A stretch of 64,000 bases of DNA from the NCBI RefSeq assembly GCF_014201335.1, contig NZ_JACHEB010000013.1, positions 62,001-126,000 on the forward strand, given 5' to 3'. This DNA comes from Tunturiibacter gelidiferens (GTDB lineage: Bacteria; Acidobacteriota; Terriglobia; Terriglobales; Acidobacteriaceae). The position numbers and the translations under genes are program-made. Position 1 is the first letter of the stretch. Each line of letters starts with the position of its first letter. Positions 13,029 through 62,496 of this stretch are shown piece by piece. The notes beneath the pieces were generated by a model, which saw nothing but the letters and a program-made list of their open reading frames with translations, did not search any database and had not been told where the DNA came from.

Positions 13029-13810
13029 TTAAATCATGGCTTTGAGATAAGCGATCGTGGCAGTGAATTCGCTGCGATCCACCCGAAAATTACTGTCCCC
13101 TCCGATGACATCGAGGACGTGGTCGACACCGAGTCCATGGGTGAGCTCGAGTACGACCTCATCCCATGTTGCGTTCGTACTCGTATCGATTACCTCTGCC
13201 GCTCCCAATTGTTTCAGGCGCGCAATCTTGCCTGGCTTCTGGAAGTTACCAACACGCGAGCGCCATGTGCCACCGCCAATTGCAGAGCGAACAGCGAGAC
13301 ACCGCCGCTTCCTTGGAGCAGAACCGTCTCTACCGGCTTCAGATTGTCGTGCTTGAACAACGCAACCCAAGCAGTAATTGCAGCCACCGGCAGCGTTGAT
13401 GCTTCTGCTGGTGTCAGATAATCGGGATAGACGAGCGCGCCTTGTTCAGAGAGCAAGACATATTCGGCGAACACGCCCGGAAGTGGGCCACCGAGGTTTT
13501 CGCGCATCGCCTCGCGCGAAGGCACTCCACGGAGCCACTTCGGTCTAAAGAGGGAAATCACCTGGTCGCCCGCTTTGAGGCGAGATACCCCGGAACCGAC
13601 TGCGACAACTTTGCCCGCCAGGTCCGATCCAAGCACTAGAAGGTACAACATGGGCACTGGATATTTGTGTTCAATCACGAGCTTATCGCGATAGTTCAGC
13701 GATACGGCCTTGGTGCGAACGAGAATTTGGCCAGTCTGCGGCTGGGGCGTCGGACTCTCGATAAGGTGAAGGTTTTCATTTCCGCTTTTCTTCAACTGCC
13801 AGCTCTTCAT
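13029..13810 (-). pseudogene. Zinc-type alcohol dehydrogenase/quinone reductase, frameshifted and 3'-truncated
   Basis: The start at 13810 reads MKSWQLKKSGNENLHLIESP, a medium-chain dehydrogenase N-terminus, with GSDLAGKVVAVGSGVSRLK and the cofactor loop VLLQGSGGVSLFALQLAVAHGARV. After about residue 195 (near 13,235) the frame shifts: RLKQLGAAEVIDT...GLGVDHVLDVIGG continues in another frame and ends at 13029. Family members are about 330 residues, so roughly the last 70 are missing. The truncated end lies only 25 bases from the tRNA-Leu CCA, that is, at the island junction. It is probably non-functional. Confidence 0.8.
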
Positions 13811-13929
13811 ACAGTTCTCCGATGATTGAGTTATCGTGCGAATTGTTCCTGATCGCGGGGCACTATTCGACTCTTTGCCCCAGAGAGGAAGTTTGTTTCA
13901 TAGGTTGCGATAAAAAGAGTGCGCACGCC

Positions 13930-15369: not shown

Positions 15370-18300
15370 TTTTCTCCTCCAATTCCTCGGCAACTTCTTC
15401 CCATTCTTCGCGAAACTCTTTCTTCGCCCATGTACGCAGGGCTACATAGAACACTGGAGTCAGAAAGAGACCAAACAGTGTCACACCGAGCATTCCAGAG
15501 AAGACCGTAATGCCAGTCGCTGCGCGAACTTCGCTGCCGGCGCCGTGCCCCAGGAGCAATGGAACCGAACCGGCGATAAATGCGATCGAGGTCATCACGA
15601 TCGGACGCAGACGCATGCGACACGCTTCGAGCGCAGCCTCCACGATGCTTTTGCCCTGAAGCTCTAATTCTCGAGCAAACTCGACGATGAGGATTGCGTT
15701 CTTGCAGGCCAGGCCCATCAAAACCACTAAGCCCACCTGCACGAATACATTGTTGTCGCCACCCGTGAGCCATACGCCAAGAAGTGCCGCACACATGCAC
15801 ACGGGCACAATCAAAATTACCGCCAGCGGCAGCGTCCAGCTCTCATAAAGGGCGGCAAGCACAAGGAAGGCTAGCATTACAGCAAGTGGAAATACTACAG
15901 CGGCTGCGTGGCTTTGTGTCGCCTGCTGATAGCTCAAGTCTGTCCACTCGAGTACGATGCCACGGGGCAGCACCTTGTCGGCGATCTCCGTCAGTTTTGT
16001 AACAACCTGTCCAGATGAGAGCTTTTTGGGATCGGAATCGCCGATAAGATCGGCGGCCGGGTAGCCGTTATAACGCATAACCGGATCAGGTCCATAGCTC
16101 GGTACTACCGTCACAATCGAGCCTATAGGCACCATTTCACCGCGCGCATTGCGCACACGCAGATTGCCGATGTCCTCCACTCGCTGGCGATGGGTGCTAT
16201 CGGCCTGCGCCATGACCCGGTAGACGCGTCCGAAAGCATTGAAGTCGTTGATATAGACCGAACCAAGATAGGTCTGCAGGGTGTCGAATAGATCGGATAA
16301 CGCAACCCCCTGCGCCTTAGCCTTAATCCGATCGACCTTCACTTCGAGTTGTGGGATGTTGGCCTGGTAGGAACTGACGGGAAAAGTCATTCCTGGTGTT
16401 TGCGCGACGGCGCCCTGGAAGGCGCTCAACGCATTCTGCAGAGCACCATACCCGAGCCCTGCTCGATCTTCCAAATAAAGCGAATAACCCGAACCGTTGC
16501 CGAGACCTTGAATCGGTGGCGGCATCAACGCGTAGGAGTAGCCATCCTTGATGTTCGCAAACTTGGCGTTAAGTTCTGTGTTGATCTCCGCTGCACTGCG
16601 ACGGCGCTCATCAAACGGCTTGAGGATAACGTAGGCAACTGTATTATTGGGCGTATTGATTTGCTGCAAGCCATTAAAGCCTGAGAGGTCGACCACCATA
16701 TCGACACCATCCACGCTGTGCGCCACGTCGATCAGCCTCCGTGAGACCGCGCCGGTACGGGCATGCGAAGCACCTTCAGGCAGCTTGGCCCCGGCGAAAA
16801 GATAGAGTTTGTCCTGGGTTGGAATGAATCCTCCCGGCACTTTGATGAACAACAGTGCGGTCGCGGCGAGCAGAACCGCATAGACCGCGTACACGACTCC
16901 TCGGTGACGTAGAGTGCGTCCCACCGTACCGTGATAGTTCTCCGAACTACGCTCAAAGAAGCGATTGAACGGATGAAACAGCCAGCCGAACGTGCGTTCG
17001 ATGCCTCGCGCCAGTACATCTTTGGGCGCATCGTGCCCTTTGAGTAACTTTGCTGCGAGCGCTGGCGACAAAGTCAGGGAGTTGATCGCAGATATCACGG
17101 TCGAGATCGCGATGGTTACCGCGAACTGTCTGTAGAACTGGCCGGTGACGCCGGAAAGGAAGGCCATAGGCACGAACACAGCGCAGAGCACGAGCGCGAT
17201 CGCAACGATGGGACCGGATACCTCTTTCATCGCCTGGTGGGCAGCGTCACGCGGGCTTAAGCCCTCCTGGATATTGCGCTCGACATTCTCGACCACAACA
17301 ATGGCGTCGTCGACGACGATGCCGATCGCAAGTACCAGGCCGAACAAGGTCAGTGTGTTAATCGAGTAACCCAAGAGATACAGAAACGCGAATGTGCCCA
17401 CCACCGAGACTGGCACCGCAACGAGCGGAATGATGGAGGCGCGCCACGTCTGCAAGAACAGAATCACTACCAGCACCACCAACACTACGGCCTCGATCAA
17501 TGTATGCTCAACCGCGCGGATCGATTCGCGCACGAATACGGTTGGGTCCCAGTTTGGCTTGTAGACCATGCCGGCAGGGAACTCTACAGACAACTTGTGC
17601 AACTGTGCATACACCGAAGTGGCAACCCCCAGGGCATTGGCTCCGGGGGTAAGAAATATCCCGATTGCCACACCCTTTTTGTTGTCGTGGTACATATCCA
17701 TGGTGTAGTCGCTGGCGCCAAGTTCAACCCGTGCAACATCGGAGAGATGTACGATTTGGCCGTCCGCACCATCTTTGAGCACAATGTCGCCAAACTCCTT
17801 TTCGCTGCGGAGGCGTCCTTGCACGTTGATCGGGATTAGAAGCTCGGTGGTCTTCGGCGAGGGCTCGGCGCCGAGCTGTCCTGCTGACACTTGCACGTTC
17901 TGCTCGCGCACAGCGTTGACCACGTCGGCGGCGGTAAGACCGCGCGAGGCAAGTTGGTTCGGGTTGAGCCAGAGACGCATGGCATAATCGCCAGAACCTA
18001 TCAACTGAACATCACCAATACCGGGTAGGCGCGACAACTCGTCCTTGATATGCAGGACCGCGTAGTTGCGCAGGTACAGTGAGTCGTAACGATTGTCGGG
18101 AGAATACAAGCTCACGTACATGAGCGGTGTGGGCGATTGTTTCTGCGTGGTTACGCCAAACTGGCGCACCTCATCAGGTAACCGAGACAGTGCCTCACTG
18201 ACCCTGTTTTGCACACGTACGGCCGCAGTATCGGGATCGACCCCAGGCCGGAAGGTGACCACGACCTGAAGACTGCCATCGGAGCCGGCGACAGACTTCA

Positions 18301-32174: not shown

Positions 32175-33021
32175 GGAAACCGTGCTCAACCGGCATGGGG
32201 GCAGCTCAAGAAAGGTAAGGTTCCGTACGCTTGTCTTTGAATCTGTGGCTGATCGTTCGTGCTTGGATCTGAGGGATTTAGCTTAGCTGCGGAGTTGGTC
32301 CCATGGCAGTGGATAGGAGAGCATGGACAGACGAAGATTTATCGTGCGAAGTGCAGGGGCGCTGGCGACGATCGGGCTGGGGGATCGGAGGTCGCGAAGC
32401 AGCTGGAATCGCGATACGGGGCGCAAGCAAGTGTCAACCCGAGTGCCGGAGAACGCGAGATGGCTCGTATGGCTGTGACAGGGTTCGCGGAACACGTCCT
32501 CGCGGGCAAATCTCCGACAAGCAGGAAGCTTCTCGCTCGCTAAGATGACGAGGAGAACTTTTCTCTGAAGAAGCTTCGTCGTCGTAGCCAATATCTCGGG
32601 TACAGACGTCAGTTCGCACTAATTTCGGCAAGCTACGCTAAATTACAGGTAGGAATGGGTTTAGCTGGTTCGCTAATTACGCTCGATTACGCTTATTATC
32701 ATAGACATACGGTATCTCCGGAACTCAAAATCCGTCAAAAGCAATTCCATGGGGGTTCGATTCCCATCCCGGCACCAAGTATCCGATTTGTTTTCAATGA
32801 TTTGAGATCAGGGAAGCGACCCGAACTGAGTTCGTCGCGATGCAAATACGGTGCAGTCAGCATCTTATTTATTTTTATTTGAATAACTTGCGTAATTTGG
32901 TGCGTTTCCGCCCACTCGCTAATATAAGGGGTGCGCAACGGACTATCGGCTTCACGAAAAATATGTTGCGCTTAAAACGAGGGTTCTAGTTAAACAAGCA
33001 GGCCGGTGTATCTTAGGTAGC
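32175..33021. other. Intergenic with gene debris and att copy 2
   Basis: This stretch has no intact gene. At 32,322 a frame opens MDRRRFIVRSAGALATIGLG, which looks like a Tat signal peptide, but it ends after about 50 codons, so it is probably a severed gene start. The sequence TCGGGTACAG near 32,597 and the tRNA-like copy at 32,723-32,777 mark an old integration end. Confidence 0.55.
32723..32777 (+). repeat. tRNA-Leu 3'-half copy, probable att copy 2
   Basis: ACTCAAAATCCG, then GGGGGTTCGA and CCCGGCACCA, repeat the order of the tRNA-Leu 3' half over 55 bases, with divergence in the variable arm. TCATAGACATAC lies 24 bases before it, and a near-identical TCATAGACCTAC lies 26 bases before copy 3, so copies 2 and 3 share flanks that the intact tRNA lacks. 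Confidence 0.7.
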
Positions 33022-49806: not shown

Positions 49807-52800
49807 ATGATAACGATACCACGCAGAAATTCTTCTTCGAAACTTTTCAGCTGCCTCGCCATTCTGCTTCTTCTAATACCTAGCCTAGCCAAGGCGCAAA
49901 ACATCACCGCTGACGTTCTCGGTACGGTCATGGACAATACGGGTGCCATCGTGCCAAATGCGGAAGTCGCGATCGAAAATTTGGGCACACACGAAACCCG
50001 AAAGACCGTTACTAACTCTACTGGGGAATATACCTTCACTCTGCTGCCGATTGGTGCCTACACGCTGCGAGTTTCGGCATCGGGTTTTTCCATTTTTAGC
50101 GAGTCGCCCATACCGGTCTCGGCAGGAGACCGCCGACGCATCGATGCGAAATTGCAGCTAGGCTCTTTGAATGAACGCATCGTCGTAACGGACGCACCAC
50201 CCTCGCTTCAGACCGATGATTCAACAATTGGCACTACCATCGGCGAGGATGCTGTTCAGAATCTGCCGACAAACGGTCGCAACTTTATCAACCTCGCACA
50301 GCTCGTACCTGGTGCCAATTCGGGTACAGCTAACTCCATCGCCAGCGGCTCACGCCCTGACGATCGCCGCGAAACCTCTGCAGTTTCTGTGAACGGCCAG
50401 AGCACGATGGTCAACACGGAGCAGATCGACGGCCTCGACAACAATGAGCGCATTATCGGAACCATTGGCATCCGGCCATCGATTGACGCAATTCAAGAGT
50501 TCCGCGTCGAGACGAACCAGTACACTGCCGAAGTGGGCCGCACGGCCGCCGCAGTCGTCAATATTCTGACAAAGTCGGGCACAAATAGCTTCCACGGCTC
50601 GGTGTACGAATTCCTGCGTAACGACAAGCTTGATGCGCGCGATTACTTTGCCACGACAGGTTCTAAGCCGGAGTTTCGTCAGAACCAGTTTGGTGGTTCC
50701 ATCGGCGGCCCGATCATCCGCGACAAGAGCTTCTTTTTCGCTGACTTTGAAGGGCTGCGCCGTGTGCAGGGCACGACCAGTACTGCGACTGTTCCCACAC
50801 TCTTTGAAGAACAAAACCCGGGAAACTTTTCCGATGCAGGTGGCCCGGTCTTGACGCCAAACCAGCTCGATCCTATTGCGCTCAATTACTACAAGCTGTA
50901 CCCGGCGCCGAATAAAGCAGGTTTCTCAAACAACTTTGTAAGCTCTCCAAACAACATACAAAACGCGGAACTCGCCGATGTGCGCTTCGACGAACACTTT
51001 GATCAGAACAATCTCTTTTTCGCTCGCTACTCCATAAATCGGACCAACACTAACACCCCAGGACCCTTTCCCGCTGTCAATGGCATCCAACCGGGCGGCA
51101 ATGTGTACGGCGAAGACGGAACCTCGAATCAGCAGGAACAGAACATCGCCCTCAACTATGTTCACGTCTTTACACCGTCTGTTCTTCTCGAATTGAAGGC
51201 GGGTTACACCCGTATCAACAATGCATCGTTGCCGCTGAACTTTGGCAGCTCCGTTTCTTCCCAGTTCGGATTGACCGGGGCAAACTACGGCGATCCGACG
51301 TCTCATTTCCTAACGCCATTTGTGCCGAGCGGATATGGATCGGTCGGCGATGGAGAGTATCTGCCGCTGCAGGATCTTGATAACACCTTCCAATACAACG
51401 GTTCGCTCTCGGTTAACAAAGGCAACCATAGCATGAAAATGGGCGCTACACTGATCCGCCGCCAGGCAACCAACATTCAGAGTGCATTTGCTGCAGGAGC
51501 TTTCACCTTCAACGATAACTTTGCGGCGAACCAGGTTAGCGCGGGGCTATTAGGTGCATGCAATAATCAACAGGCGGATACCTGCACGCTCATCTCGATG
51601 CTTGAAGGAACAGCCTTTTCCGCTCAACGAAGCAACCAACTCTTTCCCATCTCCTATCGCACGTGGGAGCCGAGCGTTTACTTCCAGGACAACTGGCATG
51701 CTCTGCCATGGCTGACACTCAATCTGGGTGTTCGTTACGATGTCTTCACGCCTTATACAGAAAAGCACAATAGGCTCTCCAACCTCGATCCGGCGACAGG
51801 AACGTTGATCCTGGCTGGCGTAAACGGTGTGAATGACGCAGCAGGTGTCAAAACCGACTACAGCAACCTAGCTCCTCGTTTCGGTTTTGCGGCTACGCTG
51901 CCTCACAAGGCAGTCCTGCGCGGTGGTTTCGGAATGAGTTTCTTTCCAGACAACTACGGCACCTCAGGTGATCGGCAGAATCAGCCCTTCGTCTATAATT
52001 TTCAGCCAGCTCCCGAGTACAACATCTCGCAGGGCCTGCCGGTTCCGATCCTCGACAACGGACAAATCACAAACCCCCAGGGCGCCATCGCCAATGCAAT
52101 GGACCCGAACTTCCGCAATGCCTACATGTACCAGACCAGTCTGACGTACGAACAGCAGATCGCTTCGAATGTGCTCACCATAACGTACGTCAGCGACATC
52201 GGACGCCATCTGGCGCAGTTCATTCCTAACATTGACGTACCGCTACCGTCAGCGCAGTCATACCAGGACAACTGTGCTCCGGCGAATAGCGCTGCCTGCC
52301 TCGCGCTGCCGACACTCCAGTCAGTCCGCCCCTTCAACGGCACGTTACCTAACATCACCAGCATCACGCAGACCTACAGCCACGGCGTCTCATATTACAA
52401 CGCCGCCGAGGTCGCCTTTCAGCGCCGCATTAACCGAGGTCTTACCTTCAATGTGAACTACACTTTCGCCCATATGCTGGACAATGCTGCCGATCTGAAC
52501 CAGGACAATCAAGCTGGTTATGGCCTGATTCCCTCGCAGATCTCCACCTACGACTACGGCAACAGCGACGCAGATATACGCAACCGTCTCGCTGGTTCAT
52601 TCAACTACGAGCTACCCTTCGGCAAAAGCCTGACTGGCTATAAGAAGGTAATTGCAGGCGGATGGAGCACAAACGGTATTCTCGTCTGGCAATCGGGCCT
52701 GCCATTCACCGTGCAAAACAATGTGCCGCAGATTAATACCGGTGCGGGGGATGACCGGCCCAACCTGGTAGGTAATCCAACACTGAGCCACCCTACCAAC

Positions 52801-53100
52801 ACGCAGTACTTCAATGTCGCAGCCTTCCAACCACAGGAATTCGGGACTGCCGGTAGCGCACCGCGCAATCCGTTGCATGGACCGCACTCCCGCCACTTCG
52901 ATTTCTCGGCATTCAAGCAGTTTCCCGTGCGTGAAAATATCCATCTCGAGTTCCGAACAGAGATTTTCAATCTAACCAACACGGCTAGTTTTTCCGTCCC
53001 GAACTCCGCTCTCGGAACAAACGGCGTAGGTTCAATTAGTGGCGACGCACCGTACTACACCCCTCGAGAGATACAGTTCGCCCTCAAGCTGCTGTTCTAA
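49807..53100 (+). CDS. TonB-dependent receptor with carboxypeptidase-like domain
   Basis: ATG at 49807 (MITIPRRNSSSKLFSC) leads into a signal peptide ending LLLIPSLAKAQ; an ATG at 49795 is four codons earlier. The 1097-residue protein has the CarboxypepD_reg domain (LGTVMDNTGAIVPNAEVAIE; GEYTFTLLPIGAYTLRVSAS), a plug (NLPTNGRNFINLAQLVPGAN; ITKSG-like NILTKSGTNSFHG) and a ~22-strand barrel ending REIQFALKLLF. It probably takes up oligosaccharides through the outer membrane with TonB-ExbBD energy. A degenerate operator (TGATAACGATACCA, 49808-49821) overlaps its start codon. Confidence 0.92.
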   Translation: MITIPRRNSSSKLFSCLAILLLLIPSLAKAQNITADVLGTVMDNTGAIVPNAEVAIENLGTHETRKTVTNSTGEYTFTLLPIGAYTLRVSASGFSIFSESPIPVSAGDRRRIDAKLQLGSLNERIVVTDAPPSLQTDDSTIGTTIGEDAVQNLPTNGRNFINLAQLVPGANSGTANSIASGSRPDDRRETSAVSVNGQSTMVNTEQIDGLDNNERIIGTIGIRPSIDAIQEFRVETNQYTAEVGRTAAAVVNILTKSGTNSFHGSVYEFLRNDKLDARDYFATTGSKPEFRQNQFGGSIGGPIIRDKSFFFADFEGLRRVQGTTSTATVPTLFEEQNPGNFSDAGGPVLTPNQLDPIALNYYKLYPAPNKAGFSNNFVSSPNNIQNAELADVRFDEHFDQNNLFFARYSINRTNTNTPGPFPAVNGIQPGGNVYGEDGTSNQQEQNIALNYVHVFTPSVLLELKAGYTRINNASLPLNFGSSVSSQFGLTGANYGDPTSHFLTPFVPSGYGSVGDGEYLPLQDLDNTFQYNGSLSVNKGNHSMKMGATLIRRQATNIQSAFAAGAFTFNDNFAANQVSAGLLGACNNQQADTCTLISMLEGTAFSAQRSNQLFPISYRTWEPSVYFQDNWHALPWLTLNLGVRYDVFTPYTEKHNRLSNLDPATGTLILAGVNGVNDAAGVKTDYSNLAPRFGFAATLPHKAVLRGGFGMSFFPDNYGTSGDRQNQPFVYNFQPAPEYNISQGLPVPILDNGQITNPQGAIANAMDPNFRNAYMYQTSLTYEQQIASNVLTITYVSDIGRHLAQFIPNIDVPLPSAQSYQDNCAPANSAACLALPTLQSVRPFNGTLPNITSITQTYSHGVSYYNAAEVAFQRRINRGLTFNVNYTFAHMLDNAADLNQDNQAGYGLIPSQISTYDYGNSDADIRNRLAGSFNYELPFGKSLTGYKKVIAGGWSTNGILVWQSGLPFTVQNNVPQINTGAGDDRPNLVGNPTLSHPTNTQYFNVAAFQPQEFGTAGSAPRNPLHGPHSRHFDFSAFKQFPVRENIHLEFRTEIFNLTNTASFSVPNSALGTNGVGSISGDAPYYTPREIQFALKLLF
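49808..49821. promoter_or_regulatory. Degenerate LacI-type operator copy 5 at a start codon
   Basis: TGATAACGATACCA matches TGATATCGATATCA at 12 of 14 positions and overlaps the start codon of the second TonB receptor. It may be chance, because the bases also encode M-I-T-I-P. Confidence 0.4.
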
Positions 53101-53124
53101 AGAACGGGTTACGCTCGTCATTAC

Positions 53125-53162
53125 AAATCTGCATCTTGGGCCAGCGGCAAGGGTGCAGATTT
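53125..53162 (+). terminator. Stem-loop after the second TonB receptor
   Basis: AAATCTGCA (53125-53133) pairs with TGCAGATTT (53154-53162), 25 bases after the receptor stop. A T-rich stretch follows (CATTCTTT). The 20-base loop is long, so termination is probable rather than certain. Confidence 0.5.
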
Positions 53163-53375
53163 GCCATCATTCTTTGTTGCTCGTCTTGCCTTACTACCGT
53201 TGGTAGACGGGGAGCATTCTGTCGTCTGATCACGGTCCGGCCGTGAAATCCAAATACCGTGGCTGATAATCCGGTTCCAGGAAGTGGTCGCTCACTCTTA
53301 GAGAATCAGAAAGCTAGCTCTCCATTGCTCGCGTGCCATTGAGACGCATAATCAGGTTTTTATTGAAGTTACCCG

Positions 53376-53416
53376 CCACCAAACGCCCATAAACGGTGCT
53401 TATGGGCGTTTGGTGG
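53376..53416. repeat. Perfect 17-base inverted repeat
   Basis: CCACCAAACGCCCATAA (53376-53392) and its exact complement (53400-53416) flank the 7-base loop ACGGTGC. No T-run follows in either direction. Confidence 0.75.
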
Positions 53417-53761
53417 GCGGCCTCAGTTCGAAAGACCGGCGCCTTATAATGTCTTCATTTTTGCCCGTGGTTTTGACATCAGCTATACCGTACGCGGTTA
53501 CCGCGATCACGGTGGCGTTCTCGGTAAGGTGGTGCTTGTCTACCTTGTCGAGGGTTCTGTTGCCGTGTGGTGATAGTTGAAGTCGAAACGGGAGTTCTGT
53601 GCCGGTGTAAGGCGGATACGGTTTGGGTCTTGGCTTGGAGAGAGCGAACGTCCGGTTGCTTCCAGGCTTCGTGGGGCCTGATGCAATGCCCGTTTGATTG
53701 CGAAACGGGAAGATGCGAGAGCACGGGCAGCTGCATAGGGCAGAACACAGAATGCTTGCAG

Positions 53762-53776
53762 CCTCATTTCGGGTAC
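53762..53776 (+). repeat. 15-bp target-site duplication, left copy
   Basis: CCTCATTTCGGGTAC directly abuts the left inverted terminal repeat region and recurs exactly at 59074-59088. Confidence 0.85.
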
Positions 53777-53778
53777 GG

Positions 53779-53810
53779 GGATAGCTATAGGCGGGGGAAA
53801 ATTCACCCCC
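53779..53810 (+). repeat. Left inverted terminal repeat
   Basis: It starts GGATAGCTATAG and ends AAAATTCACCCCC. The right end, read on the minus strand from 59072 to 59041, gives the same start and end with four differences in the middle G-rich part. Confidence 0.85.
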
Positions 53811-53811
53811 C

Positions 53812-54093
53812 CGCGATCCAACTGAACTGAGCGCTACTCTGCCAGCTTGGAGACAATTCTGGAAGTACGACCAAAGCGCATTTTTCATTACCGATCCCAC
53901 GAATCGAACTTGCCGATAACCCCACTTTGCGGGAGCTTGTAAAATTGTGGTGGGGCCGCCGGGGCTGGGCCCTCCCGTACACAAGCCGGACAAGTGTCGT
54001 GCGAGTCGGTGATGGCGTTCTCCGGTGCAGCCAATCCGATCACGGGTATCAGCCCCAATTCTTAGTTGCCGATAACGCGACTTTCAGGGAGAG
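53812..54093. other. Element left end with 36-base repeat copies, no gene
   Basis: No reading frame is supported here. The stretch contains repeat copies at 53906-53941 and 54064-54095. Confidence 0.5.
53906..53941 (+). repeat. 36-base repeat copy A
   Basis: It reads GAACTTGCCGATAACCCC then ACTTTGCGGGAGCTTGTA. It is 30/36 identical to the reverse complement of 55572-55607. Confidence 0.75.
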
Positions 54094-54095
54094 TC
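54064..54095 (+). repeat. 36-base repeat copy B
   Basis: It contains AGTTGCCGATAACGCGACTT then TCAGGGAG, matching the core of copy A. It lies at the 3' end of the unknown gene 54094-54627. Confidence 0.65.
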
Positions 54096-54627
54096 AAACC
54101 GACAGGCCTTCCGCAGCGCGGAGGCTCCTGTAGAAGCGCATGGCGTGAGGATTGTCTCGTGGAATATCACGGTCCAGCCGAGGCCAGTGCTCCGCAATAC
54201 CAACCGTCCGCAACAGCTTTGCATATTCCCGCATTTCGCGAGGAATGATCCCCGACACCAACATGGTCGAGATGCGCTCTCTCAATCGAGACTTCTGTAA
54301 TTCAGTCAAGTTGGTTCGACGCAAAGCTCGGGCGGTGTTTGACTTTAGCGTCGCTCCAAAAGGGAAAAGCGTATCTTCTTCTACGAAATCAACCCCCAAC
54401 GCGATACATGCGACGTCGTTCTCCTCGATACCAAGAATGACCTCGTCCATGATGGGGTATATCCAGTGAACGTCGCCCTCGCTTGCTTCTCTAGGGGCGA
54501 GTGGGCGATTGGTCTGAACGTCAAACGCAGCGCAATATTCGCGATAACGCTTTTGAATCGCCTCCACGGACCAGTTGCCCTCTCCGTTGTAGTTCCGGAC
54601 ATTTCCCGAAAAGTCTGCGCGATTCAT
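54094..54627 (-). CDS. Uncharacterised protein in the Cas1 element
   Basis: I do not recognise this 177-residue protein. It starts MNRADFSGNVRNYNGEGNWS, has no signal peptide or membrane helix, and is rich in charged residues. Segments such as YPIMDEVILGIEENDVACIA and LRERISTMLVSGIIPREMRE suggest an alpha/beta fold followed by helices. Codon use looks normal for the window, and the frame is uninterrupted, so it is probably expressed. It is bracketed by repeat copies B (downstream) and E (upstream) in inverted orientation, like a cassette. A cargo gene of the element is the likeliest role. Confidence 0.65.
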   Translation of the reverse strand: MNRADFSGNVRNYNGEGNWSVEAIQKRYREYCAAFDVQTNRPLAPREASEGDVHWIYPIMDEVILGIEENDVACIALGVDFVEEDTLFPFGATLKSNTARALRRTNLTELQKSRLRERISTMLVSGIIPREMREYAKLLRTVGIAEHWPRLDRDIPRDNPHAMRFYRSLRAAEGLSV

Positions 54628-54651
54628 AGAAGCAGTTTAGCGAAGTTGGAA

Positions 54652-54687
54652 CCGACTTGCCCGAGAAACGAGGTTATGACCAACTTC
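54652..54687 (-). repeat. 36-base repeat copy E (diverged)
   Basis: Read on the minus strand it begins GAAGTTGGTCATAACCTC and continues with CTCGGG, aligning without gaps to copy A but with about 60% identity. It lies just upstream of the gene at 54094-54627. Confidence 0.4.
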
Positions 54688-54715
54688 GTCTCTCAACCGG
54701 TCGTCCGGGAATCCG

Positions 54716-54742
54716 ACATTGCCGCAAACCTTACTTTTGGGG
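54716..54742 (+). repeat. 36-base repeat copy D (partial)
   Basis: ACATTGCCGCAAACCTTACT then TTTGGGG matches the core of copy A. It lies about 20 bases past the stop of the HEAT-repeat gene. Confidence 0.55.
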
Positions 54743-54764
54743 CTGGAGACCACCACTAGTCAGA

Positions 54765-55559
54765 TCAGGCCGGGGGAGGCCCAAACGTCTCTTCCAACGC
54801 TCGTTTGTAGTCATCGGCTTCCCATTCTTCAGGGTCTTCTTTGAACCCCAACAACGCCGATGCGGCCTCTGCGACTCGGAGCTTGAGTGTAGGGGCATCT
54901 AGCAGGCCTCGGAGCACGGGAAGCAACCTGAGATCGCGGCGTTTGCCTAGTCCCACAGCGGCTTCCTCACGTACGTCTTCATCACTGTCAGTCACTCGTT
55001 CTAAGAGCGCGTCACGAATTTCTGGCGAATCTACATCGCCTTGCACGCCAAGGCCAAACACAGCCCAATCTCGAACGTCCGAATCAACATCCCGAGTTAG
55101 TGTGAGCAACCGTGTGACCGCGTCGGGATCGTTGGGAAAATGCCCCAGAGCACAGGCGACAGAAAATCTGACATTCTCATCCGGATGTTCTGTGTACGCG
55201 GCGATGATCGGAATTGCGGCCGAGTCGTAGAGGAACCCAAGTGCCGCTATGCCGCTGGCCAAAACGATAGGATCGTCCTCACATTTGAGCATGTTTGCTA
55301 CGAGGGGAAACGCTTCTGCGCGAAACAGCCATTTCGGCTCGGCCTTCGGATCCTCGGAGGGCTCTCTCAGCTGAGAAAGGATCGCGGCGCCCCTCGCCCT
55401 CTTCAGTGGCTCATTGTCCATAAGCCATTGAGCGGCTACCTCGAAGGTCTCACGATTTCCGTTGCTCCGGAGCTCTGAAACCGCATCCCAAGGCACTTCA
55501 TCCTCGTACTGGCCGAGTAGAGTCTGATCAAACAACTCGTGCATACGTTCTGCGGTCAT
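54765..55559 (-). CDS. HEAT-repeat protein in the Cas1 element
   Basis: A 264-residue all-helical protein. Repeats of the HEAT/PBS-lyase type are spaced by about 30 residues: DPIVLASGIAALGFLYDSAA, NVRFSVACALGHFPNDPDAV, DSDVRDWAVFGLGVQGDVDS, DEDVREEAAVGLGKRRDLRL and LKLRVAEAASALLGFKEDPE. Such solenoids mediate protein contacts and have no reaction of their own. It starts MTAERMHELFDQTLLGQYED. It is bracketed by inverted repeat copies D and C, and it faces no obvious partner gene; cargo of the element is likely. Confidence 0.8.
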   Translation of the reverse strand: MTAERMHELFDQTLLGQYEDEVPWDAVSELRSNGNRETFEVAAQWLMDNEPLKRARGAAILSQLREPSEDPKAEPKWLFRAEAFPLVANMLKCEDDPIVLASGIAALGFLYDSAAIPIIAAYTEHPDENVRFSVACALGHFPNDPDAVTRLLTLTRDVDSDVRDWAVFGLGVQGDVDSPEIRDALLERVTDSDEDVREEAAVGLGKRRDLRLLPVLRGLLDAPTLKLRVAEAASALLGFKEDPEEWEADDYKRALEETFGPPPA

Positions 55560-55571
55560 CGTTCACGATCA

Positions 55572-55607
55572 TACAAGCTCGTGAAAAACGGGGTTTTCGG
55601 CAAGTTC
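55572..55607 (-). repeat. 36-base repeat copy C
   Basis: Read on the minus strand it begins GAACTTGCCGAAAACCCC and ends CACGAGCTTGTA, 30/36 identical to copy A in inverted orientation. It lies 13 bases upstream of the HEAT-gene start. Confidence 0.75.
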
Positions 55608-55859
55608 AATCGAACACGCCCAAAAACGTGACTGTGCAGGCACAACGGGATAGTTTCAGGATATTTTGCCTCCACTGCTCAATAATTGGGTCATACAGTA
55701 ATTGGTGAATATTTTCGTCGAAATTGCTAGACCTGAACGAAAGCGCACTTGAATCCCTCTCAAGATATTTCACGACTGGAGATGCTAGCAGCACAACCCA
55801 GTGTTCCTGAAGAGGTTCGGAAACTAGGCGTTTTTCTCGCCACCGGGCCGTTGTATACC

Positions 55860-56593
55860 CTTCACAATTTCCCGAAGAAATCGCTACCTCGATAAGCAAG
55901 TTTCCAGAAACGATTCAGTTGTTCTGTTCAGGAGAATGTCAAAAAAGAACAGACGTTCGAGTGTACCTATCGACACACTGGCAGGGGGAGTGATAACGAT
56001 CGAGGCTGGGGAAAAATGGTAGCTTATCGTTGTCGTAACTGCCAAAAAACGCCACAGAAGTATTGGTACGTTTGGAACAAAGCGACTTTCTGGAAGGTGG
56101 GACAAGTTCCCGAATTGGAAGATCCAATTGAACCCAAGCTGAAAAGCGCGTTGGGAAAATCAGTAAACCTTTATAGAAAAGCAATTCGTTCCCGAAACTC
56201 GGATTTGGTATCGGAGCAGTAAGCTATCTTCGCCGAATTGTGGAAGACACCACCGAAGGCTTGATGGATTTACTGAAAGAAGATAAATGGGAGGAGTGGA
56301 TGGTCGAAGAACAGACCCAGTTCGAAAAAGCTCGAAAAACATATCAGTATTCCCAGAGGATGGAGTTCGCAGCTAGTAAGATTTTGCCCTCGAAGGTCTT
56401 CGTCCAAGGACGTGATAGCTTCACTGCATTGCACGACGTGACCAGCAACGGACTCCATGGAAAAACCGAGGAAGAATGCCTGCAGATTTTCGACAGGTGC
56501 AATTTGATCTTCACTCACACCTTTCGCATTCTTCACCAACATAGGACAGAGAAAGACGAATTTGCCGCACAATTATTAGCCCTCAAGCGCTAA
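55860..56593 (+). pseudogene. Zinc-ribbon plus helical domain protein of unknown function, frameshifted
   Basis: Blocks of one protein lie in three frames. PSQFPEEIATSISKFPETIQ with FCSGECQK comes first, then MVAYRCRNCQKTPQKYWYVW (CxxC zinc ribbon) from 56016, then, after a shift near 56,200, GIGAVSYLRRIVEDTTEGLM and DSFTALHDVTSNGLHGKTEE ending at 56593. This order resembles DUF4145-like bacterial proteins with an N-terminal ribbon and a C-terminal helical domain found near defence and mobile genes. Two or more indels imply it is dead. Confidence 0.65.
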
Positions 56594-56814
56594 AGACTTT
56601 CCCCATGGAATGTCGAACTCACTGAACTACATGGGTATTCGCCGTACCTTCAATGAAATGTAATTCGAACCGGTAGAAATCGAAGTCGTGAAAATCTTGT
56701 TTTGTGGCCCGTCTAATCTTCGAAACCGAAGGTGGATTGCGATACACACTTTATAGCGCGCGGACCGATGACGGGTAGGCGAGTGTATGGATAACCGACC
56801 AACTGAATCGACGC

Positions 56815-57987
56815 CTATTCCGACACACCTGCGATTTTTGCCAAAGCCTGCCACAGCCTTGGATGTAGCACTCGTCCCTTTCTAATCTGGTCCGCATAGC
56901 CGACGGAGACACCGAGCCGCTTTCCTACTAAGGAACATGACAACGAGATAAGGCGAGGCTTAATCTGCGCCGAATAAACATCACTAGTAACCAATTTCGG
57001 ATGGTCTGAAGGATTCCAATCCCACACAGCCTGAGTGTTAACCTTTTGAGTGGCTGACCTCTTCGCCTGCGCTTCGGGAACAAGTGTGACGATACGCCCA
57101 AGACGTGCAACTTCGATGATCCGCTCAGGACTTTTTTGCTTTGCACACTCGTCGCAAGTCGTAGAAGGGCTGTGAATTTTCTTCCCGCAGGTGACACATA
57201 CTTTAGCTCGCCTGAAACTGAGTTTTCGTTCGACATGGGAGGTTATCTTCTTTTCCCGACGAGCTGCAGAGGTAGGTCGGGCGAGCAGGCGAACGCGGCT
57301 CTGGGAAGCTCTAGATTTATGGATCTGCTGTGCGAACCATTCGGCAACCGGTGCAACGAGGCGAGCCCAGATTGGCGCAGTCTCTGACAGCTTCAATGCG
57401 AAGGACGACGTTAGTCGACAATTTCCATCGCGCTCTTCAAAGAAATAACTACGTAGTAGGGGTTCACGTTGCAGCCAATCGAGTACAAATGCGTCCACTT
57501 CAGGTCTGATCGGTTCCATCAAATCACATGCCAAGCTTTCACGGTATTGGGTATCAGCATGGAGAACCCCAAGCCCAGGATCGAGCCCCAGCTTTGCGGC
57601 TGCTAGTCGTGCTTGTACTTCAAGAAGTGCATAGAGGTAATTCAGAATGGCATTGACTGGATTTGTGGCGCGGCGCGGTGAAGCTGTCAGCGATGAGATT
57701 CGCGATCCAAAGGTGCGCCAATGTTCAGGTACACGCTGCAAGTCTTGCCGAGGAAACATGACCCCTAAGCCACGCCACGTAGCCCAATAGACTTTCGGCC
57801 CTTTAGCTTCGACTGACCGAACGGCCTCAATAGACGAAGCTTCGGCAAGTTCAGACAGCCATTTTCGAATTGCCAGGGCAGCTGATTCGCTGCAAAATCC
57901 GTTTTTTACCGCCCGCTCTTGCGCCGCCAATTTTCTATCTCTAAGTTCGCGACTGATGGTCAGCGCTGTTCCATTTTGAAGAGCCAA
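56815..57987 (-). CDS. Stand-alone Cas1-like integrase with zinc ribbon and HTH, N-terminus frameshifted
   Basis: The 390-residue frame (TTG start at 57987) contains the Cas1 helical domain: PVNAILNYLYALLEVQARLA, LGLDPGLGVLHADTQYRESL, CDLMEPIRPEVDAFVLDWLQ. The metal-site residues map to Glu123, His143 and Asp155/Glu158. A C4 zinc ribbon (C264, C267, C278, C281) and a C-terminal helix-turn-helix (~347-385, KRLGVSVGYADQIRKGRVLH) follow; ordinary CRISPR Cas1 proteins lack these, casposases have C-terminal HTH domains. The N-terminal domain continues upstream in another frame to about 58112 (LRWLADRDASFAMLDRDGSV), interrupted by an extra 5-base unit. There is no cas2 or array nearby. It may act only without its N-terminal part, or be dead. 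Confidence 0.85.
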   Translation of the reverse strand: MALQNGTALTISRELRDRKLAAQERAVKNGFCSESAALAIRKWLSELAEASSIEAVRSVEAKGPKVYWATWRGLGVMFPRQDLQRVPEHWRTFGSRISSLTASPRRATNPVNAILNYLYALLEVQARLAAAKLGLDPGLGVLHADTQYRESLACDLMEPIRPEVDAFVLDWLQREPLLRSYFFEERDGNCRLTSSFALKLSETAPIWARLVAPVAEWFAQQIHKSRASQSRVRLLARPTSAARREKKITSHVERKLSFRRAKVCVTCGKKIHSPSTTCDECAKQKSPERIIEVARLGRIVTLVPEAQAKRSATQKVNTQAVWDWNPSDHPKLVTSDVYSAQIKPRLISLSCSLVGKRLGVSVGYADQIRKGRVLHPRLWQALAKIAGVSE

Positions 57988-58112
57988 AGCCTGGGCTCTC
58001 CGAAGTCTGACGTCTGACGAGTGGACTGGACTGGACCTGTGGCTACCAAGACGGATCCGTCACGATCCAGCATCGCGAAGGAAGCATCACGGTCCGCAAG
58101 CCAACGCAGATC
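57988..58112 (-). pseudogene. Out-of-frame N-terminal part of the Cas1 gene
   Basis: This stretch reads DLRWLADRDASFAMLDRDGS then VLVATGPV, the end of the Cas1 N-terminal beta domain. The main frame encodes HSSDVRLRRAQALALQNG directly after, but one phase away. Upstream of 58112 a TAA stops this frame and the first ~45 residues of the domain are not found. Confidence 0.72.
58022..58036 (+). repeat. Triplicated 5-base unit TGGAC in the Cas1 gene
   Basis: Three tandem TGGAC units sit exactly at the frame break of Cas1. Two units instead of three would fuse the two frames into TGPVHSSDVRLRRAQ. Confidence 0.8.
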
Positions 58113-58137
58113 TTACTGTATCGGTACCCCTGCAGCA

Positions 58138-58881
58138 TTCTTCGATTTCCCATCCGACAACAATCTCGGTTACTACGCATTCTGGGTGGCGATCATTATT
58201 TCTCTATGGGCTCCCATGGCTACCGTAGCAGTACTGGTTGCTCGCTTTACCGCGCTCAGGTGGTGGCCGTGGCTAACCTTCTATCCTTTTCTTCAGTTAG
58301 TTTCGAGGCCTATCGCCTCAGTTCGAGCCATTGGCCAACATCTAACGAGGTACTCATTTTTTTATGGTTTTTTCGGAATTGAGTTACTCGTCATGTGGTT
58401 GTATAAAACTTTTCGGAGCGGTCAGCGAGCGTCCACAGTGCCAATGGGTCCTATAATTGTGACTGGCATTCTGTTCTATGGCGGAATTGTTGGGTGGGCC
58501 GCCTTTATATGGTGCCGGGACTGGAACAGGTTACGACGATTTCGAAGTGTCCTTCAGGAACTCGCGCCGGCTGACTTTCTGAGGACGCTAGAGTTGTATA
58601 ACCTTAATTCTTTTCGAGCCCGCTTAATTCGTTTCGTAAGCGGCAACGCGCTCTTGCCGAATACTGACAGCTCACTCGATATTGTGCGGAACTTGGCTCT
58701 CGCCCTTGAGCCAGATCTTTCCCGAACCGCGGAACAGGTGGCTCTTACAGGTTGCGCAGAGGTTGACGAGTGGAGGTCACCCTATGTTGCGCGCCGGAAA
58801 CGAACTAGACGATTCGGCTTGTCGGTTTTGGGGAAAAGAGTTCTTGACGAGTTAGTTGCCCTGGAGCAGCGACTGGTGTAA
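58138..58881 (+). pseudogene. Membrane protein, 5'-truncated
   Basis: The open frame starts at GTG 58021, but its first ~40 codons are antisense to the Cas1 N-terminus and have no start signal. Protein-like sequence begins about 58138 (FDFPSDNNLGYYAFWVAIII). Three or four transmembrane helices follow (AIIISLWAPMATVAVLVARF; YSFFYGFFGIELLVMWLYK; IIVTGILFYGGIVGWAAFIW), then a ~110-residue cytosolic tail ending LGKRVLDELVALEQRLV. No family is recognised. It appears to be the 3' part of a larger membrane protein, joined head-to-head to the broken Cas1 5' end. Confidence 0.55.
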
Positions 58882-59040
58882 ATTGCGCCGGACGAAGACT
58901 TAACTTAATTAGCTTGATAGACGAAACGGTTCTAACCGAGAGTCGACCGCCTCCCTTGGTCAATGGGATCCTTGCGACAAATCGACGGAAAAATTTCCCT
59001 GAATTCACACTGGTAATCACTCAAGGAAGTTTTTGGAGCA

Positions 59041-59072
59041 GGGGGTGAATTTTTCCCTCTCTATAGCTATCC
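59041..59072 (-). repeat. Right inverted terminal repeat
   Basis: The plus strand starts GGGGGTGAATTTTT and ends CTATAGCTATCC. It is the inverted partner of 53779-53810, 28/32 identical without gaps. Confidence 0.85.
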
Positions 59073-59073
59073 T

Positions 59074-59088
59074 CCTCATTTCGGGTAC
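59074..59088 (+). repeat. 15-bp target-site duplication, right copy
   Basis: CCTCATTTCGGGTAC is identical to 53762-53776. The continuing CAG here resembles TCGGGTACAG near 32,597 ahead of att copy 2, so this is likely the original target context. Confidence 0.85.
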
Positions 59089-59221
59089 AGTGGCGGTACA
59101 CTCGTCAGCTCTACCGGTTTACGGTAAATTTGGCTAAGCTACGGTCACTCAACTACTTAGGGCTACGCCGAACCAGGTTAGCATTTCGTCTGTTTTCATA
59201 GACCTACAGCGATGCACGGAA

Positions 59222-59279
59222 ACTCAAAATCCGCCGAGGGCAACCTCGTGGGGGTTCGCCCCCCCCCCTCCCGGCACCA
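59222..59279 (+). repeat. tRNA-Leu 3'-half copy, probable att copy 3
   Basis: ACTCAAAATCCGCCGA, then CTCGTGGGGGTTCG and CCCTCCCGGCACCA, closely match the tRNA-Leu 3' half. It marks the right border of the composite island. Confidence 0.8.
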
Positions 59280-59698
59280 AGATAACGAATACTTCCCAGT
59301 AGACGGATCACTTCTGCGCGAGTGCCGTCTTTGCCTATGCATGGTCGGTGCCGGGCCCCCTTCCAGTGTGTGCGGAACGCTGCCCGGATGTGTTTCGGTG
59401 TCCACTGATGCCCACCGAGCAGACGATGCCAAGAAATTCAGAATCAGCCTCGAACTAAAATGAACGACGTAGCAAGGCTCCGCTCTGTAGGAACCTAGAA
59501 TGATCCAGGGTACGTGATCTGGCATTGGTCGACGGACCTCACGTAGTCCTCGTGGGTCCGAGCTGCTATCGTAGTAATCAAAAAGATCCATCGAGCGACG
59601 TCATTCTTCGCCACTGATGAAGATGGGACAAGTGTCTGTAACGAATGCGCATATAGGTTCACCGACTGACCCATTCGCACGGGATTACACTGTCCTTT

Positions 59699-60349
59699 AT
59701 GCAAAACACGGATGCAACCGACGTCGAGAATAATATGGATGACCCAATGAAACCTGGGCTTTCAGAGATCGGACAGGAAGCACAACTCATCGCCTGGCGA
59801 AAACAAAGAAGGTCAGAGCTTCTCGAATTGCGCACATCCTTTTCTGAAGAGCAACAACACCGCGCAAGCGAGATGGTTCTCAACAGGGTGCATTCTATAT
59901 TCCAAGCCCAAGGGACAAGGATTGCAGGTTTCTATTGGCCCTTTCGGGGCGAGATCGAAGTACTTCCTTTAATCGATCGTTTTCTTGCTGAAGGAGGAAC
60001 TGCCGCACTGCCGATGGTTGTTGGGCGATCGCGACCACTTACTTTCCGCCTCTGGATGCCAGGATGCCCTATGGTTGCCGGTGCGTTCGGTATTCCTTAT
60101 CCCGCAGAGTCTCGCGTTTTGGTCCCCGATACTTTGGTAGTCCCGCTGGTTGGTTATGATGATTGCTGTTATCGGCTGGGGTACGGTGGGGGCTATTACG
60201 ACAGAACGTTGGCAGTGGCTGAGCCGAAGCCTCTTAGTATCGGTATAGGCTTTGCGTCATTGCGACTCGAAACGATTTGGCCCCAGCAGTATGATGTGCC
60301 AATGGACTACGTCGTTACCGAGGCCGAAACGATACGACGACGTGCCTAA
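59699..60349 (+). CDS. 5-formyltetrahydrofolate cyclo-ligase
   Basis: A 216-residue cytoplasmic enzyme converting 5-formyl-THF to 5,10-methenyl-THF with ATP. Family features are the N-terminal LIAWRKQRRSELLELRTSFS, GFYWPFRGEIEVLPLIDRFL, and the phosphate/folate loop VVPLVGYDDCCYRLGYGGGY followed by YDRTL. The first ~30 residues are not conserved, so translation might begin at a later ATG (residue 13 or 17). It is the first core gene after the island. In many bacteria this gene (ygfA) follows the 6S RNA gene, but no 6S structure was identified here. Confidence 0.92.
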   Translation: MQNTDATDVENNMDDPMKPGLSEIGQEAQLIAWRKQRRSELLELRTSFSEEQQHRASEMVLNRVHSIFQAQGTRIAGFYWPFRGEIEVLPLIDRFLAEGGTAALPMVVGRSRPLTFRLWMPGCPMVAGAFGIPYPAESRVLVPDTLVVPLVGYDDCCYRLGYGGGYYDRTLAVAEPKPLSIGIGFASLRLETIWPQQYDVPMDYVVTEAETIRRRA

Positions 60350-60486
60350 AACGCTCCTGTGACGTCCCGCGTTCTTTGTTTGTCGAACCTTTCATCGATT
60401 TGCTCGCACACTTGCCAGTCTCGAGTTCCAGTTCTAGCAAACCTACCAGATGCCGATTTTTCCTCCTCCTGACTACGATCTTGAGT

Positions 60487-62496
60487 TTAGTAGCTAAGGC
60501 CGTAGCCGTACGCATAGAGCGGAGACGCCGAGTCATGTGGCTCAGCGCCATTCTGCTTCATCACTCCATTGATCGATGAGGGTAGCTCAAAAGGCAGATG
60601 ACCTTGAGGATTCGCGCGACCCAGCAAAACCTCCAGCAGCTCTTTACTATCGATGCCGAAGTCTCCCAGAAGCGCAGTGGTCTTGTCCTTTACATTCGTC
60701 AGTATCAGCGGACGTTCGAGGGTAGTTACAAACACTGTGGGTACAGCTTTGCTCGCCGTCACAAGTGCCTTATAGTCCGGATCGGATTCGATGTAATTCA
60801 GCCTACCCTCATGCTGACGACCGCCAAAAAAATACCCCCGATGTTCGCTGGCAAACGGAGGTGCTGCGTGGATCACCGCCAAATCCGCCTTGCTGACCTC
60901 CGAAACCACGGTGAAGCCAGCCGCTTCTACAACGGCCGGATCGATGCCTCGCACATAAAGGCGGAGCTTACTTGATGGCAACGGAAGCAACTTTCTACCC
61001 GTGTTCGCGATGGTCTTGTTTTCGAGAATGACAACCGCACGCGCCTGCGCGTCCCGGCCGGCCTTAACGAAGTCACCATTCCCCGCGATCTCGCCCGCAG
61101 CGACATCATCCACATACGGATCTTCGAACAGTCCCATCGAGAACTTTTGTTCCAGGATGCGTCTGGCCGCCATTTCCGCTCGATCCCTCGAGATGGTTCC
61201 GCTCTTGATGCAGGCCACAATCGCATCTGGATTGTTTGTGCCGCCAACTTGGTCAACTCCTGCACTAATCGCCTTGGCAAATCGTTCCTGGCGGCTCAAC
61301 GATTCCACGCCCCACGGCATCCCGATATCGGCGGGAGTCGGTTTAGAGCCTTCAGGTTCTCCATTCTTGCAAGCTTCCGAACAATCTTCCGTGATTCCCC
61401 AGTCGCTGAGTACCAGACCAGCGAACCCTTCTTTGTTCCTTAGCAAATCGGTCAACAGTTGCTGGCTGAAGCCTGCTCCCACCTGCTCTAACTCTGTTCC
61501 GTTCAGAGTCACTCCCTGCAGAATCGCGTAAGTCGGCATCACCGCCGCTACATGCGACCGAAAGGCCGCCTCAAATGGGATCATGTGCATTGTGAATTCC
61601 TGATCGTCGAGTGCAGCGAACCTCCCGTAGAAATTGTGGCTGTCCCAACCGTCCTTCACCGCGCCGTATCCCACCCAGTGCTTTACGACCGCGGCAACGC
61701 TATTGCGATTTAGGCCGTCCTTTCCGTTTTGAATTCCTTCGATGTAAGCCGCAGTCATCTTGCTCGCAACCTCGGGATCTTCACCGAAAGTCCCGTCGAT
61801 TCGCGCCCATCGGGGCTCTGTTGCCAGGTCGGCTTGGGGCGCCAGCGATTCCCGTATACCCACCGCCATATATTCTTGGCGAACAACGTCTCCAAACCGT
61901 CTGGTTAAGTCAACGTCGCCGATGGCGGCAAGGCCGAGTGTCTCGGGCCATTGGGAGAACGCGGGATTCACTGAACTGGCTCCCAGAATACTTTGAAAAT
62001 GGTGGCGTGGATCGGTCGAGATCGTAACTGGAATGCCGAACGGCGAGGATTCCGCCAGCTCCTGGATTCGATTGTTCTGCTCGGCCAGGCCTTTCGCATC
62101 GCCTCCCATACGAGTAATAAAGCTGGAGATATTCCGATTCACGATCAGATCACGCGACTTCTCCAGATCGTATTGATTCCCGGTGCCGATAGCCGCGAGA
62201 GTTCCTGAACCCGGTAGCGTTCCATGCACCATAAGGCCGGCCAACTGCTCTACGTTCAGGCGCTTGACGAGGTCTGCGGCTCGAGTCTTCACCGGCAGAC
62301 GCCAGTCTTCATATGGATCCAGACGGCCGTTCCGATCGAGATCCTTGAACGTCAATCCGTCGACGGTCAGCAGTGCAACGGAGCGATGGCCGAGCACGCG
62401 TTGCGTGGTGCCGTGCCCAAACGACTGCCCAATTCCGACAACACCAGCGCCCACAAAGCAAACCGACGTGAGCAATGCAAGCGTCTTTGTTTTCAC
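60487..62496 (-). CDS. Secreted GH3 beta-glucosidase-like hydrolase
   Basis: GTG at 62496 after GGGGGAGGAG gives 669 residues with a signal peptide (LALLTSVCFVGAGVVGIGQ). A short calcium-loop-like motif DLDRNGRLDPYEDWR precedes the GH3 barrel (FGIPVTISTDPRHHFQ; TFGEDPEVASKMTAAYIEGI; VAAVVKHWVGYGAVKDGWDS). The probable nucleophile is the Asp in GLVLSDWGITED. The second GH3 domain follows and the chain ends YAYGYGLSY, lacking the fibronectin-III tail. It likely releases glucose or similar sugars from beta-glucans in the periplasm. Confidence 0.92.
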   Translation of the reverse strand: MKTKTLALLTSVCFVGAGVVGIGQSFGHGTTQRVLGHRSVALLTVDGLTFKDLDRNGRLDPYEDWRLPVKTRAADLVKRLNVEQLAGLMVHGTLPGSGTLAAIGTGNQYDLEKSRDLIVNRNISSFITRMGGDAKGLAEQNNRIQELAESSPFGIPVTISTDPRHHFQSILGASSVNPAFSQWPETLGLAAIGDVDLTRRFGDVVRQEYMAVGIRESLAPQADLATEPRWARIDGTFGEDPEVASKMTAAYIEGIQNGKDGLNRNSVAAVVKHWVGYGAVKDGWDSHNFYGRFAALDDQEFTMHMIPFEAAFRSHVAAVMPTYAILQGVTLNGTELEQVGAGFSQQLLTDLLRNKEGFAGLVLSDWGITEDCSEACKNGEPEGSKPTPADIGMPWGVESLSRQERFAKAISAGVDQVGGTNNPDAIVACIKSGTISRDRAEMAARRILEQKFSMGLFEDPYVDDVAAGEIAGNGDFVKAGRDAQARAVVILENKTIANTGRKLLPLPSSKLRLYVRGIDPAVVEAAGFTVVSEVSKADLAVIHAAPPFASEHRGYFFGGRQHEGRLNYIESDPDYKALVTASKAVPTVFVTTLERPLILTNVKDKTTALLGDFGIDSKELLEVLLGRANPQGHLPFELPSSINGVMKQNGAEPHDSASPLYAYGYGLSY

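Follow-up and report, generated by a model that had tools for sequence, protein, structure and literature searches.

A casposon-derived deletion element in Tunturiibacter gelidiferens and a candidate -35-box target rule among its acidobacterial relatives

The element at the locus and its sister copy

The stretch of DNA analyzed here (64,000 nucleotides of Tunturiibacter gelidiferens, contig NZ_JACHEB010000013.1, positions 62,001 to 126,000; hereafter the window) carries a 5.3-kb element in the genome of a soil bacterium. The element is bounded by terminal inverted repeats and a duplicated target sequence, and it encodes a Cas1 homologue together with several cargo genes. It is very probably a non-autonomous deletion derivative of an acidobacterial casposon, a sister copy of which lies on contig 4 of the same genome. 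The features are, in window coordinates:

53762..53776, forward strand: left target-site duplication, an exact copy of the 15-bp CCTCATTTCGGGTAC
53779..53810, forward strand: left terminal inverted repeat; the element starts at about 53777, and this repeat is also found at the ends of the contig 4 sister
54094..54627, reverse strand: cargo open reading frame (ORF) of 177 amino acids (aa), without a Pfam, NCBIfam, or PADLOC match
54765..55559, reverse strand: cargo ORF of 264 aa with HEAT repeats (PF13646, E 1.4e-24)
56240..56593, forward strand: cargo ORF of 117 aa with sub-threshold matches only
56815..57987, reverse strand: truncated casposase (Cas1; PF01867, E 2.9e-28)
58020..58109, reverse strand: out-of-frame remnant of Cas1 residues 93-122, located by tblastn
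58109..58111, no strand: junction of a 7.5-kb internal deletion with a 3-bp AGA overlap, read by eye, from the alignment to the sister
58112..58881, forward strand: what is left of the 3' part of a NACHT cargo gene (within the ORF 58021-58881), with 83% DNA identity to the sister's 1069-aa gene
59041..59072, reverse strand: right terminal inverted repeat, the ends being shared with the sister element
59074..59088, forward strand: right target-site duplication, a second exact copy of the 15-bp CCTCATTTCGGGTAC

An earlier note on this DNA had described a perfect 15-base repeat at the element borders, 32-base inverted repeats matching at 28 of 32 positions without gaps, and a Cas1 homologue inside. 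All three descriptions hold, and the Cas1 is recognized by PF01867, although it is N-terminally truncated. A scan for direct repeats of at least 11 bp with abutting inverted repeats (at least 12/16 and at least 22/32 matching positions) returned one pair in the 64-kb window, namely that of the element, and none in 40 dinucleotide-shuffled windows. The symmetry of the ends suggests that the real duplication is 14 bp. Inside the element, beside the small cargo genes, lies a dispersed repeat, TTGCCGATAACNCNACTTT (53910-53928 and 54066-54084), which occurs at 15 places in the genome at up to 2 mismatches, versus 2 for the reversed control.

The N-terminal domain of the window Cas1 is gone: about the first 92 of 525 residues are missing, the PF01867 alignment spans profile positions 96-273 of 283 only, and a further frameshift lies near 58020-58035. 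The frame is open over 390 codons and retains the catalytic domain, a four-cysteine (probably zinc-binding) site, and a helix-turn-helix (HTH)-like C-terminus. Residues E191, H275, D287, C396, C399, C410, and C413 (numbering of a full-length relative) are invariant in 19 of 19 Cas1 sequences, including the window copy, and the Pfam matches of the zinc and HTH parts are weak (E 0.015-0.035). The fold and catalytic residues expected of a casposase are present, and the top fold match for the casposase of a relative is that of Methanosarcina mazei (6opm). No match to a family B polymerase was found within 52501-60500, and the plus-strand ORF beside Cas1 has no Pfam match. The window copy thus combines a Cas1-solo gene, terminal inverted repeats, and a 14-15-bp duplication with the absence of the polymerase that characterizes casposons, and is therefore classed among casposon-derived deletion elements and not among true casposons.

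Cas1 matches occur at three places in this genome, namely in the window, on contig 4, and on contig 11, and every one of them lies between inverted repeats flanked by a duplication. The contig 4 sister (13,860 bp) shares the terminal repeats of the window element and has its own perfect 15-bp repeat, GGGCCTTTGCGGCAG; it is the second copy with the same ends and a different duplication that the earlier note had named as a check. Its genes code for a large NACHT protein, Cas1, a protein of 255 aa, an HTH-like and an HNH-like protein (both weak matches), a family B polymerase (PF03175, E 4.1e-7; its C-terminus weakly matches an HTH), and a second NACHT protein. Its 103-aa gene has weak Pfam matches only (E 0.013-0.036) and a Cys/His pattern that we take to be HNH-like; a 164-aa gene of a relative gave no Pfam match at E 0.001. 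Pfam revealed no other recombinase or transposase among the sister's eight main ORFs. With Cas1-solo, family B polymerase, inverted repeats, and duplication, the sister has what defines a casposon. Its cas1 is split by a 1-nt frameshift relative to the window copy (L049, 6640-6720), for which a mutation or a sequencing error is possible.

Aligned to the sister, the window copy yields two blocks (88% over 1269 columns and 83% over 970) that adjoin in the window and are 7.5 kb apart in the sister. The window copy is the sister type after one 7.5-kb deletion, in which the polymerase, the helper genes, and the first part of cas1 were lost. Its cargo in the region from the left end to cas1 is different from that of the sister. 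The ratio of nonsynonymous to synonymous substitution rates between both copies is 0.16 for cas1 (304 codons) and 0.43 for the NACHT tail (284 codons), and we infer that most of their divergence is older than the damage. Beyond the sister's two ends, the genome holds one further match to the window ends, of 23 nt (C13:30645-30667, E 0.002), with no repeat pair there.

In the history proposed for this locus, a casposase would have joined the inverted-repeat ends to a staggered 14-15-bp target, and the element would have lost its middle, presumably afterwards, via a short-homology deletion. It may now be mobile, if at all, only with casposase supplied in trans; because all three cas1 copies of the genome are damaged, it is probably immobile today, i.e., probably inert or dead. 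The window element thereby illustrates the decay of casposons into non-autonomous derivatives.

Related elements, decay, and cargo

The casposon clade to which the element belongs is found mainly in Acidobacteriota (24 of 27 loci; genomes and loci are cited by G and L handles, G000 being the window's genome). Two of its reduced members are:

L026 (G000 contig 11), 3614-9107: third element of the window's genome, with the 14-bp duplication CGCCAGACGTTGAC and a degenerate cas1, about 100 bp upstream of tRNA-Gln
L147 (G028), 13677-17735, reverse strand: element of 4.06 kb with 34/36 terminal repeats and its own duplication at a tRNA-Gln promoter

L026 carries a gene that is presumably sulfatase-like. 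The G028 element carries a HerA-like gene, and no cas1 match was found anywhere in that genome; for cas1-less elements such as this one, either mobilisation in trans or a loss of cas1 following insertion must be assumed.

A shortened Cas1 without a working polymerase gene in the stretch examined was found in six distinct copies (window, C11, G013C2, G033, G156/G221, and G150), with the polymerase tallies among relatives denoting similarity to a polymerase, not intact genes. Such copies could represent a distinct, compact transposon family that moves with a shortened Cas1, as was implied when the earlier note called the window element a polymerase-less Cas1-based bacterial transposon; the terminal repeats of G150 (31/32), its Cas1 remnant in an open frame, and the long open frame of the window Cas1 would agree with this. 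However, the six Cas1 copies start at six different points (residues 93, 122, 128, 140, 181, and 218 of 525, respectively), and both the window copy and G013C2 are single deletions relative to polymerase-bearing elements, with G013C2 keeping a polymerase remnant. Moreover, the catalytic Glu191 region of G150 is gone, the Cas1 of C11 contains stops, and the lack of a polymerase in G033 proves little because this is a 4.8-kb contig without element ends. G146C10 shows the opposite decay, with Cas1 residues 33-211 kept and the polymerase kept in two pieces. The common Cas1 remnant is partly a search bias, because the copies were found through Cas1; the same goes for most of the derivatives, and their proportion means little. 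A separate compact family is improbable. What stands of the earlier claim is a Cas1-type (casposon) insertion in a bacterium; in place of a distinct polymerase-less family, there is an internal deletion of a polymerase-bearing casposon.

At L115 (G013 contig 2, 8431-8973), a C-terminal polymerase remnant is 81% identical to the sister polymerase, and neither a Cas1 match nor a repeat pair was found around it. G156 and G221 (L108 and L109) share a nearly identical element at tRNA-Gln, which has no polymerase match and whose cargo includes a pair of type III restriction-modification genes (as scanned in G156). As their truncated Cas1 proteins differ by 1 amino acid in 330 codons, this comparison has no power with respect to selection on truncated Cas1. 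Restriction-modification-like, STAND/NACHT, and HerA genes recur as cargo, which, judged from sequence, would fit defence functions; neither the 1218-aa NACHT protein nor the STAND protein of G033 was matched by PADLOC.

In a search for plasmid- or phage-borne members, Cas1 gave 94 plasmid records, none of which spans 80% of the query (14 of 15 among the matches listed are annotated as cas1, and 1 is unannotated), and 4 phage records, the best of which covers half of the query at 28.8%; viral_contigs yielded 1 weak locus, and the polymerase had no plasmid match. Bearing on whether the polymerase is akin to protein-primed or to RNA-primed types, PF03175 was above cut-off in 3 of 7 polymerase proteins and PF00136 was matched once (E 0.24). 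A related polymerase has a family B fold, with phi29 polymerase first in the fold search (model mean predicted local distance difference test score 67.9).

Target sites and promoter boxes

Read toward the flanking promoter, the duplications end in TTGAC at 15 of the 20 tabulated insertions having both copies; the background of this motif in these loci is about 0.0009 per position. In this table, strings were hand-trimmed to 14 nt if the repeat continued into the terminal one (L167 thereby lost one TTGAC-side base), L151, L153, L156, and L164 were counted once, being the same records as G013C1, G071, G397, and G146C27, and extra single ends found by a TTGAC-containing pattern were excluded. The misses are the window element, the sister, G013C1 (TTGAG), L152 (TTGTC), and L160, in which a 22-nt repeat contains TTTGAC and then GGGGT, read as the probable start of the next element's repeat. 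Some rows are non-independent, namely the six at tRNA-Gln, the G156/G221 pair, and the G146C27 pair. Once the six rows at tRNA-Gln are merged, as are those at valS (G146C27a, L170, and L171), and G146C27b and L160 are dropped, with both G146C10 and L162 kept though each precedes a similar radical-SAM gene, TTGAC is present at 7 of the 9 sites in relatives; counting the window and the sister as well, the figure is 7 of 11.

TTGAC corresponds to the -35 box of sigma-70 promoters, with the -10 box typically 17 nt downstream. At the 9 merged relative sites, the match to TATAAT is best with a 17-nt spacing (mean 3.4/6 vs 0.6-2.3 at other spacings from 8 to 29); the G146 valS site scores 1 at spacing 17 and 4 at 16 and 18. 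The targets behind these promoters are tRNA-Gln (six genomes) and tRNA-Ala, as well as genes that by protein name are presumably those for valyl-tRNA synthetase (valS, three loci) and a radical-SAM protein (two loci). With the -35 box at the end of the duplication, an insertion would leave -35 box, spacer, and -10 box in place for the gene downstream.

For the tRNA-Gln target, G024 provides an empty site: it has no element and one site copy, and its left flank is identical at 72/79, 79/90, and 80/90 positions to those of the elements in G000 contig 11, G156, and G221. In G031, a second candidate, the left flank is unlike these three (50/79 to 56/85). Different elements occupy the tRNA-Gln site in different species, with tandem remnants in G013 and G382, and a tandem pair is present at valS in G146. 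Tandem casposon-like ends with one common target sequence were observed at L112 and L113 (G146 contig 27), L160, and L169. At the window and sister sites, the duplication is followed by a -10-like hexamer, either TACACT at 8 nt or, on the other strand, TATACT at 9 nt, versus 18 nt in most relatives; with two sites and no TTGAC, a promoter logic is not claimed there.

On balance, we lean slightly toward the view that acidobacterial casposons form a lineage with a promoter-reading casposase apparatus, characterized by a 14-bp duplication ending in TTGAC, insertion just upstream of an intact -35/-10 pair, use of the same promoters (tRNA-Gln, valS, and the radical-SAM gene) across species, tandem stacking, and defence-like cargo. 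In related elements, this apparatus appears to choose -35 boxes of sigma-70 promoters as its targets: after excision or copying by the casposase, the ends would be joined to a staggered 14-bp target beside the recognized promoter, and in complete members the polymerase would aid replication. Either the casposase or a helper could be docking at the promoter or at RNA polymerase. If so, promoter docking would be a natural counterpart of the use of the leader by CRISPR Cas1, though the promoters here read away from the element, and mobilisation of shrunken and cas1-less derivatives (the window element and that of G028) would take place in trans. The CRISPR integrase has been proposed to derive from casposons, and little is known about how these choose their targets. 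The present lineage offers numerous insertions, one empty site, a precisely defined targeting rule, and a host in culture (Edaphobacter lichenicola M8UP30; L151, i.e., G013), which makes target choice by Cas1 directly testable.

The earlier note had linked the insertion to tRNA-Leu, of which a partial copy lies nearby:

59222..59279, forward strand: partial 3' tRNA-Leu copy, 88% over 58 columns, 133 nt beyond the right repeat and outside the casposon

This proximity is what speaks for a casposon aimed at tRNA-Leu, as in some archaea. However, the duplication has no tRNA overlap, the relatives hit promoters, not tRNA 3' ends, and the partial tRNA-Leu with its upstream arm of about 190 bp recurs without a window-type end alongside in G017, G062, and G029, and also at 32599-32779 in the window. 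Aiming at tRNA-Leu is very unlikely, the link does not hold, and the partial copy at 59222-59279 is probably the end of another genomic segment. A complete tRNA-Leu(caa) at 12918-13004 is followed by partial 3' copies in 32599-32779 and 59089-59279; the arms before both partial copies are 64% alike, and the copies look like two tandem segments inserted at tRNA-Leu. Window positions 12500-53500 contain 23 ORFs with a length of 230 aa or more; Pfam revealed no island recombinase among the 14 of them that were scanned. Lastly, a degraded CRISPR-Cas adaptation module or a domesticated solo cas1 amid chance repeats, with which the element has the Cas1 family in common, is next to impossible: the repeat structure is not a chance one according to the shuffles, all three Cas1 places of the genome are bounded by such repeats, and this reading is refuted because the second copy has the same repeats and its own duplication.

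Several points weigh against the interpretation of the window element as a casposon derivative within a promoter-targeting lineage. The window and sister duplications, without TTGAC, TTGAG, or TTGTC, are exceptions to the rule of their relatives. No genome with an exact empty site for the window insertion was found, homologues being present for the right flank only, and the deletion may have come before or after insertion. Movement of any member is inferred from sequence. The Cas1 tree, which left out L165, L173, and L175-L178 as partial or distant, places these casposases in one clade with a Deltaproteobacteria/Myxococcota and an Actinomycetes Cas1, included no published family 3 sequence, and, being a quick tree with long-branch warnings, does not settle kinship with the archaeal casposase.

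Comparison with known casposons

Contrary to the earlier note, which knew of no described family of this make-up, bacterial casposons have already been described as family 3, in which the Cas1 of AceAut-C1 has C-terminal zinc-binding and HTH parts (Krupovic et al. 2014, PMC4046053); that description names only four bacterial casposons, and the published median duplication of casposons is 15 bp. The elements described here resemble family 3 in bacterial host, Cas1-zinc-HTH fusion, inverted repeats with duplications, and variable cargo, and the parent element also in its family B polymerase and its candidate HNH-like and HTH-like genes (PMC4046053), with the limit that the polymerase here matches PF03175 weakly. 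The differences are that the window copy lacks the polymerase and the Cas1 start, that the hosts are mainly Acidobacteriota, which are not named among the family 3 hosts in the available part of PMC4046053, and that family 3 is described as intergenic (PMC6614799), in contrast to the -35 boxes of the relatives here. The sister and the complete relatives can be filed as casposons that are family 3-like by description. In the open-licence literature covered, which mostly excludes subscription papers and preprints, no paper on casposons in Acidobacteriota or on promoter targeting was found among those listed, one of which has its casposon mention in the reference list; what appears to be new is the acidobacterial casposon clade and its -35-box target rule, not the window copy.

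Two archaeal systems are informative for comparison. MetMaz-C1 of M. mazei likewise combines Cas1-solo with a type B polymerase, has a 14-bp duplication, and has a terminal repeat of similar length, which starts with GGGATA; in contrast, its duplication, ATAATCTTAATGCG, lacks TTGAC, its host is an archaeon, and the element is intact, with movement shown (PMC10359463). The casposon of Aciduliprofundum boonei belongs to family 2, most members of which reside in tRNA genes, and it shares the 14-bp duplication. Its leader motif is TCAAATC, not a promoter, and its host is an archaeon; nevertheless, its target is recognized via a 'leader' beside the duplication, and the promoter-side targeting proposed here would resemble this leader-beside-target logic (PMC6614799).

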